From an archaeon (lineage in GTDB: Archaea; Hydrothermarchaeota; Hydrothermarchaeia; JALTZZ01; JALUTC01): a stretch of 6,956 bases of DNA. The notes beneath the pieces are model-generated. The model did not search any database. It was not told the DNA's origin and saw only the letters and a program-made list of their open reading frames with translations. The position numbers were made by a program, and so were the translations under genes. Position 1 is the first letter of the stretch. Each line of letters begins with the position of its first letter. Location of the stretch: assembly GCA_027051265.1 (NCBI GenBank), contig JALTZH010000013.1:1-6956 (forward strand), in the 5' to 3' direction. Of this stretch, positions 1,077 through 6,956 are shown in pieces.

Positions 1077-2522
1077 TTAGAATTGAAGAATGTTTATTTT
1101 CATTTCATTCATGAACAAAACAGGCACCAAACCTGGTGTTGGATGAATATTCATTCTTTTCTGATATTCTGTTTGTTCTTGAAACGTTCCAGAATTTATA
1201 AGAAGAATGTTCTTATAATCTTTGATTGCTGTTCGATGTACATGACCAGCATGAATAATGTTTGGAATTTGATCGATCACCAAAAAATCAAAATCTTCTG
1301 GAGCAATAGGGACTCGTGAACCGTAAAATGGAGAGAGATGTCTTTTCTTTAACCAGATGGTCATTGCGAGATCAACTTTTTTATAATCATAACCTGGTAA
1401 TGTTGCTATTATATCATCTAAGCTTCTTCCATGATAAATCAATATATCAATTCCATGCAATGATATGAAAGAAGGATTCGATAACATTACAAATCTTGAA
1501 TCATTATAAAAATCTTCGGCATATTCTTCTAAAATTGGTGGCTGCGGCTCTGCTTGTCTTGTCGCATCGTGATTTCCAGGGATTATTATAATTTTTATAC
1601 CTTCAGGAACTTTTTTTAACATCTCGTATAATTTTTTGTACTGTTCTTTTATGTTTTTTATTTTAAGCTCTTCTTCTTGATTAGGATATACTCCTATACC
1701 ATCAACTAGATCACCACCAATTATAATATATTTGACACGAGATGCAATATTCTTAGCAACGCTTTCCATGCGTAGCCATCTAACAAATCTTTGAAACTTA
1801 TCGGTTAAGAATTTATTACTACCAACATGAATATCCGAGATAAAAACCGTTACAATATCGTTTTCTATCGTTTTCGTCCTTAAATTAACAGGAACATCAG
1901 GAAATATTATATCCGAAACAATAAACCTTCCGTGTTGAAATTTTCCTCTTAAACATAGAATTTCATCTTTAATTATTTCATCACAAACTTTATATAACTC
2001 ATCGTTTTTCACCACAGCACTCATTGTTCCTGTAGGATCATCAACCTCCAATACGATATATCGGTTAGAATATTTTTTAATATCATAGACACAACAAACA
2101 ACATAAGCTTCTTCTTTTAACTTTTTTGCTTGCGATATAGTAATTGATCTAATTCCCCTTGATTCAAACAATTCCTTTATTTTAGAATATCTATTTCTGA
2201 AATAATTTAAGAATTTTTTTACATCAGCTTTTGAGGTGATCTTTTTAAAATTTTTTTTGATTTTTATATCTTCCTCGTATTCATCAGCGATTCTTTTATA
2301 TTTTTTCTCCAATACTACAACGTTGTTTCTACTATTAGTTTTCATGTTGGATTTTATCTTGTTTAGGAATTCTTCCGTTATGATTGCAACATCTTCTTTA
2401 AGAGCATGCTCTATTATCTTATTTAAATCGGAGATATGTTCCTTTTCTAGAATTTCTAATGCTTTTGGTGTTATATTTAAATTGTACTTAAGAAGTTTTC
2501 TTATTATATCTTTCTTTTTCAT
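1077..2522 (-). CDS. polB: DNA polymerase D (Pol II) small subunit DP1, 3'-5' exonuclease
   Basis: DP1 is the small subunit of archaeal replicative polymerase D. It gives 3'-5' proofreading exonuclease activity and binds the catalytic DP2 subunit. From the ATG at 2522 the product is 481 residues. The order is a helical, lysine-rich N-terminal region (about 1-125), an OB fold (about 140-210, containing VDDPTGTMSAVV) and a calcineurin/Mre11-type phosphoesterase domain (about 225-450). All metal-ligand motifs are present: SDIHVG (D230, H232), GGDLVDG (D271), PGNHD (N317, H318), YHGRS (H364) and HAGHVH (H427, H429). The exonuclease should therefore be active. The C-terminal NSGTFQEQTEYQ and PTPGLVPV segments are typical of DP1. 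An upstream GTG at 2531 would add three residues. I prefer the ATG because GGTGA at 2532-2528 sits 5 nt before it, and the GTG lies inside that ribosome binding site. The gene overlaps the end of cdc6 by 35 bp, so the two are probably cotranscribed and translationally coupled. The DP2 gene is not in the window. Confidence 0.95.
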   Translation of the reverse strand: MKKKDIIRKLLKYNLNITPKALEILEKEHISDLNKIIEHALKEDVAIITEEFLNKIKSNMKTNSRNNVVVLEKKYKRIADEYEEDIKIKKNFKKITSKADVKKFLNYFRNRYSKIKELFESRGIRSITISQAKKLKEEAYVVCCVYDIKKYSNRYIVLEVDDPTGTMSAVVKNDELYKVCDEIIKDEILCLRGKFQHGRFIVSDIIFPDVPVNLRTKTIENDIVTVFISDIHVGSNKFLTDKFQRFVRWLRMESVAKNIASRVKYIIIGGDLVDGIGVYPNQEEELKIKNIKEQYKKLYEMLKKVPEGIKIIIIPGNHDATRQAEPQPPILEEYAEDFYNDSRFVMLSNPSFISLHGIDILIYHGRSLDDIIATLPGYDYKKVDLAMTIWLKKRHLSPFYGSRVPIAPEDFDFLVIDQIPNIIHAGHVHRTAIKDYKNILLINSGTFQEQTEYQKRMNIHPTPGLVPVLFMNEMKINILQF

Positions 2523-3678
2523 CAAAATCACCGGATAAAATATTGATACAATTCTTTATTGCTTCAAGATTTTCAAAATTCAAATGAATTTCTCTCGTTC
2601 TTCCATATCTTCCTCTATTTACAATTTTACAGGATATAAAACCCATGTTTTCTAATTCAGTTATTATTTCGGAGATTCTTTTTTTCGATAGCTTTTCAAT
2701 ATTTAATGAGGAACATAATCTTTCATATATACTATAAATAAAACCTGTTGTTAATCTTCTCCCTTCATTACTTAGCACCACTAGTATATATAAGATTAAT
2801 TTGTAATGCAATGGTAGATCTTTAACAATTTCTTCGTAAATTTTTACATCTAGATGTTTAATCGCTCTTTTAATATGATCTAACGTTATTTTATTTGAAC
2901 CCTCTTTCTCTGCCAGTTCACCTGCGAGTCTTATTATGTTAAGAGCTTTTCTTACATCACGACTTTCTCTCATAACGTATGCGGCAACATAATCTAAAAC
3001 ATTAAAATCTATAACGTTATCGTTTAATGCTAATTTAACCCTCTCGTATATTATATCTCTTAGTTCTTCTAAATTATACGGATGAAAAATAATTTTAACA
3101 CCATCAATTGTGCTGAGAATTCTATCATCAATGTTTTTTAGGAAATCCACACGATTTGAGATACCTATAATTGAAACTCTGGAACTTCCTATTTCGGTGT
3201 TTAATCTCACCAACGTATATAAGATACTATCGTTTCTTTTTTTGATTATTTCATCAATTTCATCCAGTACAACGATTAAATAGCAATTCGTATCTTTTAA
3301 TTTATCTCTTAATAACAAATATAACTTATCTGAACTCCAACCACTTACTGGTACATGAATGTTAAAACTTTTAAGTATTTCAGCCAAAATTCTATATCTG
3401 GTTTGTAAATTTTTACAGTTTATATAGCAACATATTAAGTTACGATTTAAACCTTCATCGTTTTTTATTATCCTTGTAACATAATTTATTACTAATGTTT
3501 TTCCAACACCAGGTTTTCCATATACTAATATATTTCTTGGAATATTATTTATTATTGAACATTTTAATATTTCCATAATTCTTCTCACTTCATTATCTCT
3601 ATGAAGTGGTTTTTCAGGAATATAAGAATCATATAATGCCTCCCTATATTTAAATATCCTAGTATTAAATCGTTCCAT
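2488..3678 (-). CDS. cdc6: Orc1/Cdc6-type replication initiator ATPase
   Basis: Archaeal Orc1/Cdc6 binds origin repeats, opens the duplex and helps load the MCM helicase. The 396-residue product has the normal length and layout. An N-terminal arm (about 1-25) contains the LYDSYIPEKPLHRD entry segment. The AAA+ core has Walker A GKPGVGKT (54-61), Walker B VVLDEIDE (D139, E140) and sensor-1 asparagine N175 in GISNRVDF. The sensor-2/lid helix ESRDVRKALNIIRLAG spans about 238-253. A C-terminal winged helix (about 288-370) has the wing signature GRYGRTREI (357-365), which contacts DNA. The start at 3678 has a six-G run at 3693-3688 as ribosome binding site, 9 nt upstream. The gene is divergent from the molybdoenzyme gene and overlaps polB, an arrangement known from Pyrococcus, where the origin lies upstream of cdc6. 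Arginine codons are mixed (AGA, AGG, CGT, CGA), unlike the molybdoenzyme genes. Confidence 0.96.
   Translation of the reverse strand: MERFNTRIFKYREALYDSYIPEKPLHRDNEVRRIMEILKCSIINNIPRNILVYGKPGVGKTLVINYVTRIIKNDEGLNRNLICCYINCKNLQTRYRILAEILKSFNIHVPVSGWSSDKLYLLLRDKLKDTNCYLIVVLDEIDEIIKKRNDSILYTLVRLNTEIGSSRVSIIGISNRVDFLKNIDDRILSTIDGVKIIFHPYNLEELRDIIYERVKLALNDNVIDFNVLDYVAAYVMRESRDVRKALNIIRLAGELAEKEGSNKITLDHIKRAIKHLDVKIYEEIVKDLPLHYKLILYILVVLSNEGRRLTTGFIYSIYERLCSSLNIEKLSKKRISEIITELENMGFISCKIVNRGRYGRTREIHLNFENLEAIKNCINILSGDFDEKERYNKKTS
2528..2532 (-). promoter_or_regulatory. Ribosome binding site that decides the polB start
   Basis: GGTGA matches the complement of the archaeal 16S rRNA 3' end and lies 5 nt upstream of the ATG at 2522. 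It overlaps the alternative GTG codon at 2531, which would be occluded by rRNA pairing. It lies inside the last codons of cdc6, as expected for a coupled operon. Confidence 0.65.
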
Positions 3679-3847: not shown

Positions 3848-3855
3848 TTTAAATA
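3848..3855 (+). promoter_or_regulatory. TATA box of the molybdoenzyme operon
   Basis: TTTAAATA is a near-consensus archaeal TATA box. Initiation about 25 bp downstream would fall near 3877, just ahead of the GGTGAT ribosome binding site, giving a leader of about 14 nt. The agreement between box, predicted start and ribosome binding site makes this the best promoter call in the window. Confidence 0.55.
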
Positions 3856-3878: not shown

Positions 3879-3884
3879 GGTGAT
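3879..3884 (+). promoter_or_regulatory. Ribosome binding site of the molybdoenzyme gene
   Basis: GGTGAT lies 6 nt upstream of the ATG at 3891 and matches the complement of the 16S rRNA 3' end. It favours this ATG over the in-frame ATG at 3897. Confidence 0.7.
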
Positions 3885-3890
3885 TAGAAT

Positions 3891-6383
3891 ATGGTAATGT
3901 TGAAAAGAATTTCTGAGTCAACAAAGGATTACGATACAATAAGATATACAACATGTACAAACATGTGTGAATCTGGTTGTGGTTTAAAAGTCTTTCTAAA
4001 AGATGGCAGAATCGTTGATATATGGGGAGATGAAGAGCATCCACAAAACTATGGAGCTCTATGTCCAAAAGGATCAGCATTAATACAACATGCTTATAAT
4101 CCATTAAGAGTTAAATATCCAGCTATTAGAGAAAATATAGATGATAAGTTCAGAAGAGTAACATGGGATGATGCTTTAGATTTCGTTGCTGAAAGATTAA
4201 AGTATATAAGAGAAAAATGGGGTGCTCATACCGTTGCATGTCATAGAACAGGTAGATCAAGTTTTGGTCATAAATTAGGTGCAACCAGATTCTTAACAAT
4301 GTATGGTACACCAAACATATTTGGACAAGGACCACTATGTTGTGAATCACCAGGTGCTAGAGGACATTATGTATTTGGAGCAAAAGAATTTCTAAGATTG
4401 TTTAATCCTTGTCAAGATGCTGTAAATTCTGATACAATTGTAATATGGGGAGGAAATGTTGCTGCTAACGAAGTCATAACAATGTCATGGTTTATCAGAG
4501 CAAAAGAAAAGAGAGGAGCTAAGTTAATAGTAGTTGATCCAAGATTTAATGCTACGATGGCAAAAGCAGATTTAGCTCTAAGATTAAGACCAACAACTGA
4601 TGCTTATCTAGCAAATGCAATTGCACACGTATTAATATATGAAATTGATGGTATCGATAAAGAATTCGTAAGAAAGTGGATCCATGGATTTAATAGATAT
4701 GCTGAAACAGTAAGACACTATACACCAGAAAAAGCTGAAGTTGTAACCTGGGTACCAGCTGAAGATATAAGAAAAGCAGCTGAATGGGTTGCATATCCAA
4801 GAAGAACTCACTGGACTGGTTGTTTAGGTACGGCACAACAATACAACGCAGGTAATACAAATGCTGCCATTCAAGCATTAGTAGCAATTACCGGTAATGT
4901 TGGTGTTAAAGGAGGCGGATGGAACTGGTTACATAATTGTAGACCACCTCTAAATGCTGGTAAGGATTTAGCAAAATATAAGGCAAAGATTAAGGAACCA
5001 ATAATCTCCGATAAAATAATACCATGGGGTGATACAAGCTCTGCAGCAATCATACATGTAATGTTAACAGAGAAGCCATATCCAATTAAAGGATTCATAA
5101 GCAATGGAAATCATCCAGGTAGTCAATGGCCAAACATCAATAAAGTAAGAGAAGCAATAAGAAAGTTATATCTACATGTACACTTAAGCTTCCATCCAAA
5201 TGGAACTGCTGCTATGTCACATGCAATATTCCCAATTGGAAGTCAATTTGAAAGAGAAGGATTATGTCACCATGGTAACAATAGACATATGCAATGGCAT
5301 AACTGGATAATACCAAGACAATGGGAATGTAGATCTGATATTGACTTTTGGGCAAACTTAGCAAAGAGATTTGAATTCGCAGAAGAATATTATGCACCAG
5401 GTGGAAAAAGCTGGTGGGCTAAGGTTGATCCTTTAGGTAATCCAGTTCCTGAAGATCCAAAATATCCTGGTACAACAATATATGTAGATGAAAAGATTTC
5501 AACAGACTTCTTTAATCAACAAGAACCATTTACAGCAGGTTGTACATGGGATGTATTAGATCCTGAAAGATCACCAAGAGGAGGAGTAATGTGGCCAGCA
5601 CAAACAAAAGATGAAGCTCTAATGTATTCCGATCCAGAAGCAACAATTAGAGGTGCACAATGGATAATGTATAGAGAGGGTGTAAACTATCCTGGAACAG
5701 ATAAAAGATTCCCAACACCAAGTGGAAAGGTTGAACTTTATTCAGAAGCATTAGAACAAATCGGATGGTATCCAGTACCAATTCATATTGAACCAAGTGA
5801 ATCTCCAATAGCAAGACCAGATCTATGGGAAAGATTCCCAATCATATTATCATCTGGAAGATTGGTATCTAGCTTCCACGAAATGGGTCACTGGTGGCCA
5901 TGGATGGTAGAATTAGAAAATCATAGCTTCGTAAATATCCATACGGAACTAGCAAAGGTATTGAACATCAAAGAGGGAGATTTGGTAGTAGTAGAAAACG
6001 ATAGAGGTAAAGTAATAGTACCAGCATGGGTTAATGAAATGGTAGATCCTGCAGCAGCATGGTTCCCAGAAGCCTTTGATCCATATCAGCCATTCTATCC
6101 ATACGAGTCAAATAATGTCTTAGTAGATGATATAGTAAAAGATCCATATTATACACAGGCACAATATAAATGTAACATGGTTAGAATATATAAACTTGGA
6201 GACGATCCAGAAGAAGCTGTTAAGAAAACAAAAGAATTTCTAAAGAAAATTGGAAGAGATCCTAAGAGCTATCCTGATCCTAAGACAGATCCAACAGTTA
6301 ATCTAGGTACTTACACAAGATTTATCAAACCAGGTTCAGGTATTTGGTTAGAACCACAACCTAGAGAGGAATATAAATTATAA
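3891..6383 (+). CDS. Molybdopterin (Mo/W bis-pterin) oxidoreductase catalytic subunit, acetylene hydratase-like, substrate unknown
   Basis: This is an 830-residue catalytic subunit of the DMSO reductase superfamily. A [4Fe-4S] site is formed by C22, C26, C30 and C58 (CTNMCESGC, then GALCPKG). Pterin-binding segments include VDPRFNATMAKADLALRL (215-232), QALVAITGNVGVKGGG (328-343) and TPSGKVELYS (609-618). The C-terminal pterin-binding beta domain spans about 647-770. The metal ligand is probably C150 or C151 in GPLCCESPG. By spacing to G163, C150 matches the Cys/Sec of formate dehydrogenase and acetylene hydratase as I recall them. The His that follows the ligand in formate dehydrogenases is absent, which argues against that activity. 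The TPSGKVELYS block and the segment after it strongly recall acetylene hydratase, about 100 residues shorter. There is no twin-arginine signal or membrane helix, so it should be cytoplasmic. An iron-sulfur subunit gene follows after 58 bp, so an electron-transferring enzyme is likely. PsrA/TtrA-like thiosulfate, polysulfide or tetrathionate reductase remains possible. Every arginine codon is AGA. Confidence 0.92.
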   Translation: MVMLKRISESTKDYDTIRYTTCTNMCESGCGLKVFLKDGRIVDIWGDEEHPQNYGALCPKGSALIQHAYNPLRVKYPAIRENIDDKFRRVTWDDALDFVAERLKYIREKWGAHTVACHRTGRSSFGHKLGATRFLTMYGTPNIFGQGPLCCESPGARGHYVFGAKEFLRLFNPCQDAVNSDTIVIWGGNVAANEVITMSWFIRAKEKRGAKLIVVDPRFNATMAKADLALRLRPTTDAYLANAIAHVLIYEIDGIDKEFVRKWIHGFNRYAETVRHYTPEKAEVVTWVPAEDIRKAAEWVAYPRRTHWTGCLGTAQQYNAGNTNAAIQALVAITGNVGVKGGGWNWLHNCRPPLNAGKDLAKYKAKIKEPIISDKIIPWGDTSSAAIIHVMLTEKPYPIKGFISNGNHPGSQWPNINKVREAIRKLYLHVHLSFHPNGTAAMSHAIFPIGSQFEREGLCHHGNNRHMQWHNWIIPRQWECRSDIDFWANLAKRFEFAEEYYAPGGKSWWAKVDPLGNPVPEDPKYPGTTIYVDEKISTDFFNQQEPFTAGCTWDVLDPERSPRGGVMWPAQTKDEALMYSDPEATIRGAQWIMYREGVNYPGTDKRFPTPSGKVELYSEALEQIGWYPVPIHIEPSESPIARPDLWERFPIILSSGRLVSSFHEMGHWWPWMVELENHSFVNIHTELAKVLNIKEGDLVVVENDRGKVIVPAWVNEMVDPAAAWFPEAFDPYQPFYPYESNNVLVDDIVKDPYYTQAQYKCNMVRIYKLGDDPEEAVKKTKEFLKKIGRDPKSYPDPKTDPTVNLGTYTRFIKPGSGIWLEPQPREEYKL

Positions 6384-6384
6384 A

Positions 6385-6400
6385 CTTTTATTTTTTTCTT
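6385..6400 (+). terminator. T-rich tract after the catalytic subunit gene
   Basis: CTTTTATTTTTTTCTT begins one base after the stop codon, inside the 58-bp gap before the iron-sulfur subunit gene. It resembles an archaeal U-tract terminator. Because the next gene is the expected partner, it more likely causes partial termination than a full stop. I see no second TATA box at a convincing spacing in the gap. Confidence 0.35.
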
Positions 6401-6428
6401 AAATTTACGAATCATCATCTCAAAGATA

Positions 6429-6437
6429 GAGGGGGAT
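6429..6437 (+). promoter_or_regulatory. Ribosome binding site of the iron-sulfur subunit gene
   Basis: GAGGGGGAT ends 4 nt before the ATG at 6442, with the G run 6 nt from it. It supports this start and the long N-terminal segment of the protein. Confidence 0.6.
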
Positions 6438-6441
6438 ATAT

Positions 6442-6956
6442 ATGGTTGAACCTTTCACTGAAAAGGATCAATTGAAGAATTTCGTACCTCAAATAGCCAA
6501 ATATTTCTGGGAGAAAAATAAAAAAATAGGATTATATGAAAGCCAAGGAGCTCATAGATGGTTAGTACCAGCAGAACATCTATGGTTATACATAGATTTT
6601 GATAGATGTCTAGGATGTTTTGCATGTGAAACCGCTTGTAAACTAGAGCATGATTTACCAATGGGTATTAGACATATAAGAGTAATGCAAATTGGTCCAA
6701 AGAAAGTAGGAAAAAAAGTTAAAACAATATACTATCCGATGGCATGTTTCCATTGTGGAAGAGCACCATGTGTCGAAGCATGTCCAACAGGTGCAATGAG
6801 AAAGAGAACGGATAACGGTATTGTTTATGTTGATAAGGAAGCATGTATAGGATGTAAACAATGCATGCAAGCATGTCCATTTGGTGCAATTCAATTTGAT
6901 TCCAGATTTGGTAAAGTTACGAAGTGTAACTATTGTATGCATAGAATAGATAAAGG
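6442..6956 (+). CDS. PsrB/DmsB/NrfC-type four-cluster ferredoxin subunit (cut by window edge)
   Basis: This is the electron-transfer subunit that normally partners a molybdopterin catalytic subunit, passing electrons between its pterin/[4Fe-4S] site and a quinone-linked or soluble carrier. The window holds 171 codons plus two bases. Cysteine motifs run in family order: C56-x2-C59-x2-C62-x3-C66 (CLGCFACETAC), C102-x2-C105-x4-C110-x3-C114 (followed by PTGAM), C135-x2-C138-x2-C141-x3-C145 (CIGCKQCMQAC then PFGAI), and the first pair of the fourth motif, C162-x2-C165. Two more cysteines are expected beyond the edge. About 47 residues precede the first cluster strand (WLYIDFDRC), longer than in typical DmsB/PsrB, and they show no signal peptide or Tat motif. 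The ATG has a strong GAGGGGGAT ribosome binding site. The gene lies 58 bp after the catalytic subunit, on the same strand, and uses the same AGA-only arginine codons. A NrfD-like membrane subunit or maturation chaperone may follow outside the window. Confidence 0.93.
   Translation, partial: MVEPFTEKDQLKNFVPQIAKYFWEKNKKIGLYESQGAHRWLVPAEHLWLYIDFDRCLGCFACETACKLEHDLPMGIRHIRVMQIGPKKVGKKVKTIYYPMACFHCGRAPCVEACPTGAMRKRTDNGIVYVDKEACIGCKQCMQACPFGAIQFDSRFGKVTKCNYCMHRIDK

Follow-up and report, generated by a model that had tools for sequence, protein, structure and literature searches.

A putative soluble molybdopterin oxidoreductase of Hydrothermarchaeia with a possible role in sulfite metabolism

The gene pair and its host

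We analyzed a 6,956-base stretch of deep-sea archaeal DNA (the window), which represents one whole contig (C13) from a genome of 1.46 Mb that is 95% complete. Two adjacent genes at its right end were of interest. The first (3891..6383, + strand) codes for the 830-amino acid catalytic subunit (designated A) of a molybdenum/tungsten (Mo/W)-bis-pterin oxidoreductase, as recognized from its open reading frame (ORF) and domains, and the second (6442..6956, +) codes for a DmsB/TtrB/DsrO-type four-cluster ferredoxin (B1), of which 171 amino acids are visible before it runs off the contig end. Neighboring genes and genome distribution suggest that the A-B enzyme probably acts on sulfite, or on a sulfur compound related to it, alongside the Dsr sulfite reductase. 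A first-pass annotation had reported the gene pair and an archaeal host, and both were borne out. The two ORFs were found, and chance could be ruled out because orthologs with 67–88% identity occurred in 13 other genomes of the same class. The host was placed in the class Hydrothermarchaeia; among the matches listed, its nearest named relative by A was Candidatus Pyrohabitans JdFR-17 (76% identity).

All three domains of A (Molybdop_Fe4S4, Molybdopterin and Molydop_binding) scored above Pfam cut-offs, and by these domains and its predicted overall fold A is a member of the Mo/W-bis-PGD (DMSO reductase/MopB) family. The [4Fe-4S] cluster is coordinated by C22, C26, C30 and C58, with the spacing C22-x3-C26-x3-C30; in the alignment, the stretch ending in the fourth ligand and K60 (CPKG) corresponds to positions 4020..4070 (+). 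The presumed Mo/W ligand, C150 (codons of C150-C151 at 4338..4343, +), was invariant across the 14 family members, paralogs included, and aligned with C141 of acetylene hydratase (AH; GPLC/MYMC). The adjacent C151 was replaced by Thr in L110 and by Gly in L032, with C150 still kept in both. E27, likewise present in 14 of 14 aligned members, is a conservative counterpart of AH Asp13, although the motif that carries it is C-x3-C. The metal is probably molybdenum (or tungsten). The visible part of B1 contains 14 Cys residues in a four-cluster pattern, and the remainder of the fourth cluster was seen in full-length orthologs. B1 is 74% identical to the complete 261-amino acid ortholog from L020, which scored 131 bits against the TtrB profile (cut-off 416).

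A candidate archaeal TATA-box-like site, TTTAAATA, was read at 3848..3855 (+), approximately 40 bases upstream of the A start, followed by a possible Shine-Dalgarno site (GGTGAT, 3879-3884, +). Other genes in the window, named from their translations, were overlapping genes for the PolD small subunit and an orc1/cdc6-type ATPase (1077-3678, −; divergent from A) and hisF (2-754, −).

Operon organization in relatives

Genes downstream of position 6956 were taken from the complete operons of relatives (L020-L031). In these, the order was A, B1, a protein of approximately 100 amino acids, a second four-cluster ferredoxin (B2) and a TorD/NarJ-type chaperone (PF02613), with divergent mobA and moeA genes upstream of A. 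The small protein (L020 13151-13477, +, and orthologs) is conserved and represents a free-standing duplicate of the B1 C-terminal tail (HHalign 97.5%, E=5e-12). MOT1-family molybdate transporters adjoin A at three loci; in G002, a TauE/SafE gene and a MOT1 gene were located downstream of B2. Large B12-binding radical S-adenosylmethionine proteins adjoin the operon in three Hydrothermarchaeia genomes (L026 15105-17237, +; L022 544-2805, −; L029 6430-8505, +).

The net electron transfer proposed in the first-pass annotation is in agreement with this conserved operon, in which two four-cluster ferredoxins are encoded alongside a TorD-type chaperone. The same annotation had named several genes to look for downstream; in the relatives, the chaperone was there, and an NrfD-like anchor and CoA or thiolation enzymes were not. 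No twin-arginine translocation (Tat, RR) motif was detected in A in any of 14 aligned rows, and the genes conserved across the complete operons included neither an NrfD anchor nor any other membrane-protein gene, suggesting that the A-B complex should be soluble and cytoplasmic. A description of this operon was not found in the literature examined.

A separate clade of bis-pterin oxidoreductases

Protein A reached no cut-off of a curated NCBIfam equivalog; its scores were 280 bits for Fdh-alpha (cut-off 666), 199 for PhsA (694), 108 for NapA (904) and 104 for ArrA (1600). The top match in a profile search of PDB was HDCR FdhF, and full-length A matched Thermus PsrA/PhsA (E=3.8e-51), FdhF (3.9e-51) and AH (8.8e-41). 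When residues 534-830 were used alone, the best PDB match was AH (2e7z, E=1.4e-11, 47.5 bits), followed by trimethylamine N-oxide reductase (36.5 bits). Thus, the remark in the first-pass annotation that the C-terminal half recalls AH holds for this segment but not for the full-length protein, for which PsrA/PhsA and FdhF rank higher. The TPSGKVELYS motif is not diagnostic because variants occur in PhsA (SPSGKIELYS), DmsA (TPSGKIEIYS) and PsrA (TASGKIELY).

In a phylogenetic tree of 38 rows, from which SoeA and TtrA were absent, the A proteins and their paralogs formed their own clade (support 100/99), apart from AH (which grouped with two AH-like proteins), PsrA/PhsA, DmsA and Fdh/Nap. The approximately unbiased (AU) test rejected the grouping of A with AH (p=0.005) and with PsrA/PhsA (p=6e-5). 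The cluster motif of A is C-x3-C-x3-C, as in DmsA, whereas AH has C-x2-C-x3-C. The acid at the position of AH Asp13 is replaced by His in two AH-like proteins, L064 and L107, and the Hydrothermarchaeota protein L068 grouped with NapA/Fdh. The structure model of A was of moderate confidence (predicted local distance difference test, pLDDT, 68). Its matches in PDB ranked in the order Nap, Fdh, AH, Aio and Psr, with VIA Z scores of 34.0 for Desulfovibrio desulfuricans NapA (over 655 residues, root-mean-square deviation 3.3), 33.4 for Fdh, 32.5 for AH and 27.2 for PsrA; this ranking confirms only the predicted fold and is neutral between families. By sequence comparison, A is a member of a well-supported separate clade and belongs to none of the characterized branches compared. 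The suggestion of an uncharacterized lineage was therefore upheld, with PsrA/PhsA placement rejected and ArrA far below its cut-off, and the designation acetylene hydratase-like had to be abandoned.

Distribution and co-occurrence with Dsr, Apr and Sat

Of 23 Hydrothermarchaeia genomes, 14 encode protein A (67–88% identical to that of the window); at the thresholds applied, it was not detected in any of approximately 370 further archaeal genomes. Outside the class, the matches listed included full-length relatives with 47–57% identity, encoded twice in the single-cell genome of an Altiarchaeales member and also in two genomes of Anaerolineae; the Anaerolineae search took in 298 genomes. Contigs were scanned with two short patterns, and these matches may therefore not include rare relatives elsewhere. 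No relatives were detected in the viral collection. The genomes were metagenome-assembled genomes and one single-cell genome, and gene absence in incomplete ones is weak evidence. A 40% identical paralog of A was present in two Hydrothermarchaeia genomes (L032 9125-11554, +; L033 283-2748, −), adjoining FwdB-like, FwdD-like, two moeA, moaA-like and UbiA-type genes, and is possibly a second uncharacterized Mo/W enzyme with links to one-carbon (C1) metabolism.

DsrAB was present in 12 of the 14 A-bearing Hydrothermarchaeia genomes. A full-length AprA or a clear homolog was found in G008, G010, G012, G015, G019 and G021, with weaker matches (E~1e-14 and above) assigned to the broader flavoprotein family. 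Sat was present in G008, G010, G012 and G015, and G021 had a fragment of it. Both AprA and Sat were absent from 13 of 14 A-bearing genomes and from 11 of 12 that had A and DsrAB; only G008 holds all four. With relatedness ignored, Fisher tests over 23 genomes gave p=0.018 for A and AprA and p=0.066 for A and DsrAB, the latter falling to p=0.013 in genomes at least 88% complete. This inverse occurrence of A and Apr is suggestive, not proof.

Gene neighborhoods outside Hydrothermarchaeia

In one Anaerolineae genome (G548), a single run on the minus strand comprised dsrA-dsrB-dsrC-dsrM-dsrK-cytochrome c-MOT1-A-B. Here, dsrB scored 383 bits (cut-off 341.5) and dsrK 545 bits (cut-off 400), dsrC had the C-terminal Cys motif, and AprA was not found in the genome. 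The dsrABCMK and cytochrome c part of this run lies at 5560-9992 (−) of L114, and no dsrJOP was present in the stretch read. In the second bacterium, Anaerolineales G394, A was preceded by genes for electron transfer flavoprotein alpha, a Tfr/DsrK-like membrane protein, two GcvH-like (LbpA-like) proteins, LipS2, lipoate ligase-like proteins and MOT1. In gene content this cluster resembles lipoate-dependent sulfur oxidation; DsrA, AprA and Sat were not found in G394. Of the two A-B pairs in the Altiarchaeales genome, one was located opposite HdrA/NuoE, NuoF and HdrA/NuoG-type genes and the other near a PadH-like flavoprotein. The former set (L076 1055-7017, −; an HdrA/NuoE fusion, NuoF and an HdrA/NuoG fusion) forms an electron-bifurcation-like module. 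This single-cell genome may be chimeric.

Proposed function and alternative explanations

What the dsr, lipoate and TauE contexts have in common is sulfite; we therefore ranked sulfite/sulfate chemistry first, thiosulfate/polythionate second and C1 chemistry third. The substrate, which the first-pass annotation had called uncharacterized, is thus not wholly open, since the genomic context points to sulfite. Our preferred interpretation, to which we would give a little less than an even chance, is that A and B1 begin an operon for a soluble cytoplasmic sulfur-oxyanion oxidoreductase acting at the sulfite node, most likely in sulfite/sulfate interconversion. The sulfite/sulfate couple lies at approximately −516 mV and suits a ferredoxin-type partner; a soluble many-cluster enzyme fits this low potential, which further supports the first rank. 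Other points in favor are the presumed Cys metal ligand, as in SoeA, PhsA and AH, the MOT1 genes beside A and the near-absence of Apr and Sat from A-bearing genomes. Maturation of a complex of A, B1, the small protein and B2 would involve the TorD-type chaperone together with MobA/MoeA. The bis-pterin Mo (or W) site of the complex would act on a sulfur oxyanion beside the Dsr sulfite reductase, most likely in a SoeA-like interconversion of sulfite and sulfate. The [4Fe-4S] cluster of A and those of B1 and B2 would connect the metal, for electron flow in either direction, with a soluble carrier of low potential, which may be ferredoxin, or NAD(P) via a separate flavin module, in place of quinone. 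The lack of an NrfD-like gene in the conserved operon and the HdrA/NuoE, NuoF and HdrA/NuoG-type genes opposite A-B in Altiarchaeales are consistent with the electron partner that we infer, as we also infer substrate, direction and metal.

Sulfate reduction normally requires Sat-Apr (PMC10504309), and Hydrothermarchaeota have been reported as CO oxidizers with dsrAB and only partly with sat/apr (PMC6775978, PMC6759336). A bolder form of the sulfite/sulfate proposal, which we regard as doubtful, is a reversible ferredoxin-coupled Mo enzyme that replaces Sat-AprAB in DsrAB-bearing archaea and converts sulfite and sulfate directly into each other, with no need for ATP or adenosine 5'-phosphosulfate. 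In that case CO (about −520 mV) could serve carboxydotrophs as the electron source for direct sulfate reduction.

Several observations weigh against a sulfite-linked role. G013 has A without DsrAB, and in Hydrothermarchaeia dsrAB is not located beside A (in the window genome it is on contig C48). The association of A with AprA was not significant in genomes at least 88% complete (p=0.21), and few lineages carry the Apr pattern (by family, five had A only, one both, two Apr only and two neither). In addition, G548 contains Sat, neither DsrA nor AprA was found in the Altiarchaeales genome, and the position of the paralogs beside FwdB-like genes points to C1 chemistry instead.

The strongest competitor, though clearly less probable, is a cytoplasmic thiosulfate/polythionate reductase, in which ferredoxin would drive the cleavage of thiosulfate to sulfite and sulfide, or of tetrathionate to thiosulfate, with DsrAB reducing the sulfite. 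Thermus PsrA/thiosulfate reductase is the best full-length PDB match of A, DsrAB without Sat/Apr requires a source of sulfite, and TtrAB has been listed for some Hydrothermarchaeota by Kato et al. However, the tree separates A from PsrA/PhsA, A has neither the Tat signal nor the NrfD anchor of Phs, Psr and Ttr, the lipoate sulfur-oxidation context of G394 fits less well, and Carr et al. saw no thiosulfate reductase in their genomes. A formate dehydrogenase-like or other C1 oxidoreductase linked to the Wood-Ljungdahl metabolism of these archaea appears rather improbable. Such a function would agree with the highest NCBIfam score, the top PDB profile match (HDCR FdhF), the FwdB-like genes at paralog loci and the NuoEF/HdrA-type partners in the Altiarchaeales single-cell genome, but the Fdh-alpha score is far under its cut-off, A and Fdh separate in the tree, and the neighbors include dsrABCMK and lipoate sulfur genes.

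Nap-type nitrate reduction would follow the literature reading of NapA-annotated Hydrothermarchaeota genes, as Carr et al. reported that genomes from Juan de Fuca carry napDGH and a napA that evolved early; the top fold match and the TorD-type chaperone in the operon could be taken in its favor. We consider it very unlikely, given the NapA score, an operon without NapB/D/G/H, the lack of a signal peptide in A and the presence of L068, which is the likelier Hydrothermarchaeota napA. Least probable of all is a redox-neutral hydratase of the AH kind with structural or activating ferredoxins. It is favored by the C-terminal third of A and by E27 at the position of the catalytic Asp13, and opposed by the rejected AH grouping, the two four-cluster ferredoxins alongside A in complete Hydrothermarchaeia operons, the His of the AH-like proteins where AH has an acid, and the lack of a partner subunit in AH itself.

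Implications and comparison with known systems

Hydrothermarchaeota have been called sulfate/sulfite reducers or sulfide oxidizers on the basis of dsrAB. Within the class, however, neither Sat nor AprAB is present in most genomes with dsrAB. Protein A is found in just these genomes, and in a bacterium it follows immediately after dsrABCMK, which makes it a concrete candidate for making or removing sulfite. Its clade adds a well-supported uncharacterized branch to the bis-pterin oxidoreductases, and loose annotation of A as NapA, Fdh or acetylene hydratase would mislead metabolic reconstructions.

Compared by description rather than by sequence, the sulfite dehydrogenase SoeABC shares with the A-B system a Cys-ligated Mo subunit, a cytoplasmic location (predicted for A from the lack of a signal), a four-cluster ferredoxin and a sulfite-linked setting; the A operon differs in having two ferredoxins and a small protein and no NrfD-type SoeC. 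SoeA is nearly absent from archaea (5 archaeal among 1,354 bSreA/SoeA hits), and a Cys metal ligand is common to SoeA, PhsA, PsrA and AH (PMC10100899). PsrABC/PhsABC includes the best full-length PDB relative of A and has the Cys ligand and a B-type ferredoxin, but A is only 27% identical to Thermus PsrA, lacks the Tat signal and membrane anchor, and falls well below the PhsA cut-off. AH (2e7z) is similar in fold, Cys ligand and the C-terminal third, has an Asp beside the cluster where A has Glu, and differs in overall sequence (26% identity), in its C-x2-C motif and in the redox partners that accompany A. FdhF/FdhA share the fold and the highest family score, whereas A remains under that cut-off, forms a separate clade and has no fdh-type operon. 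Finally, Sat-AprAB acts beside DsrAB at the same sulfite/sulfate step as proposed for A, although its proteins are unrelated to A-B and both are missing from nearly all Hydrothermarchaeia genomes that contain A and DsrAB.

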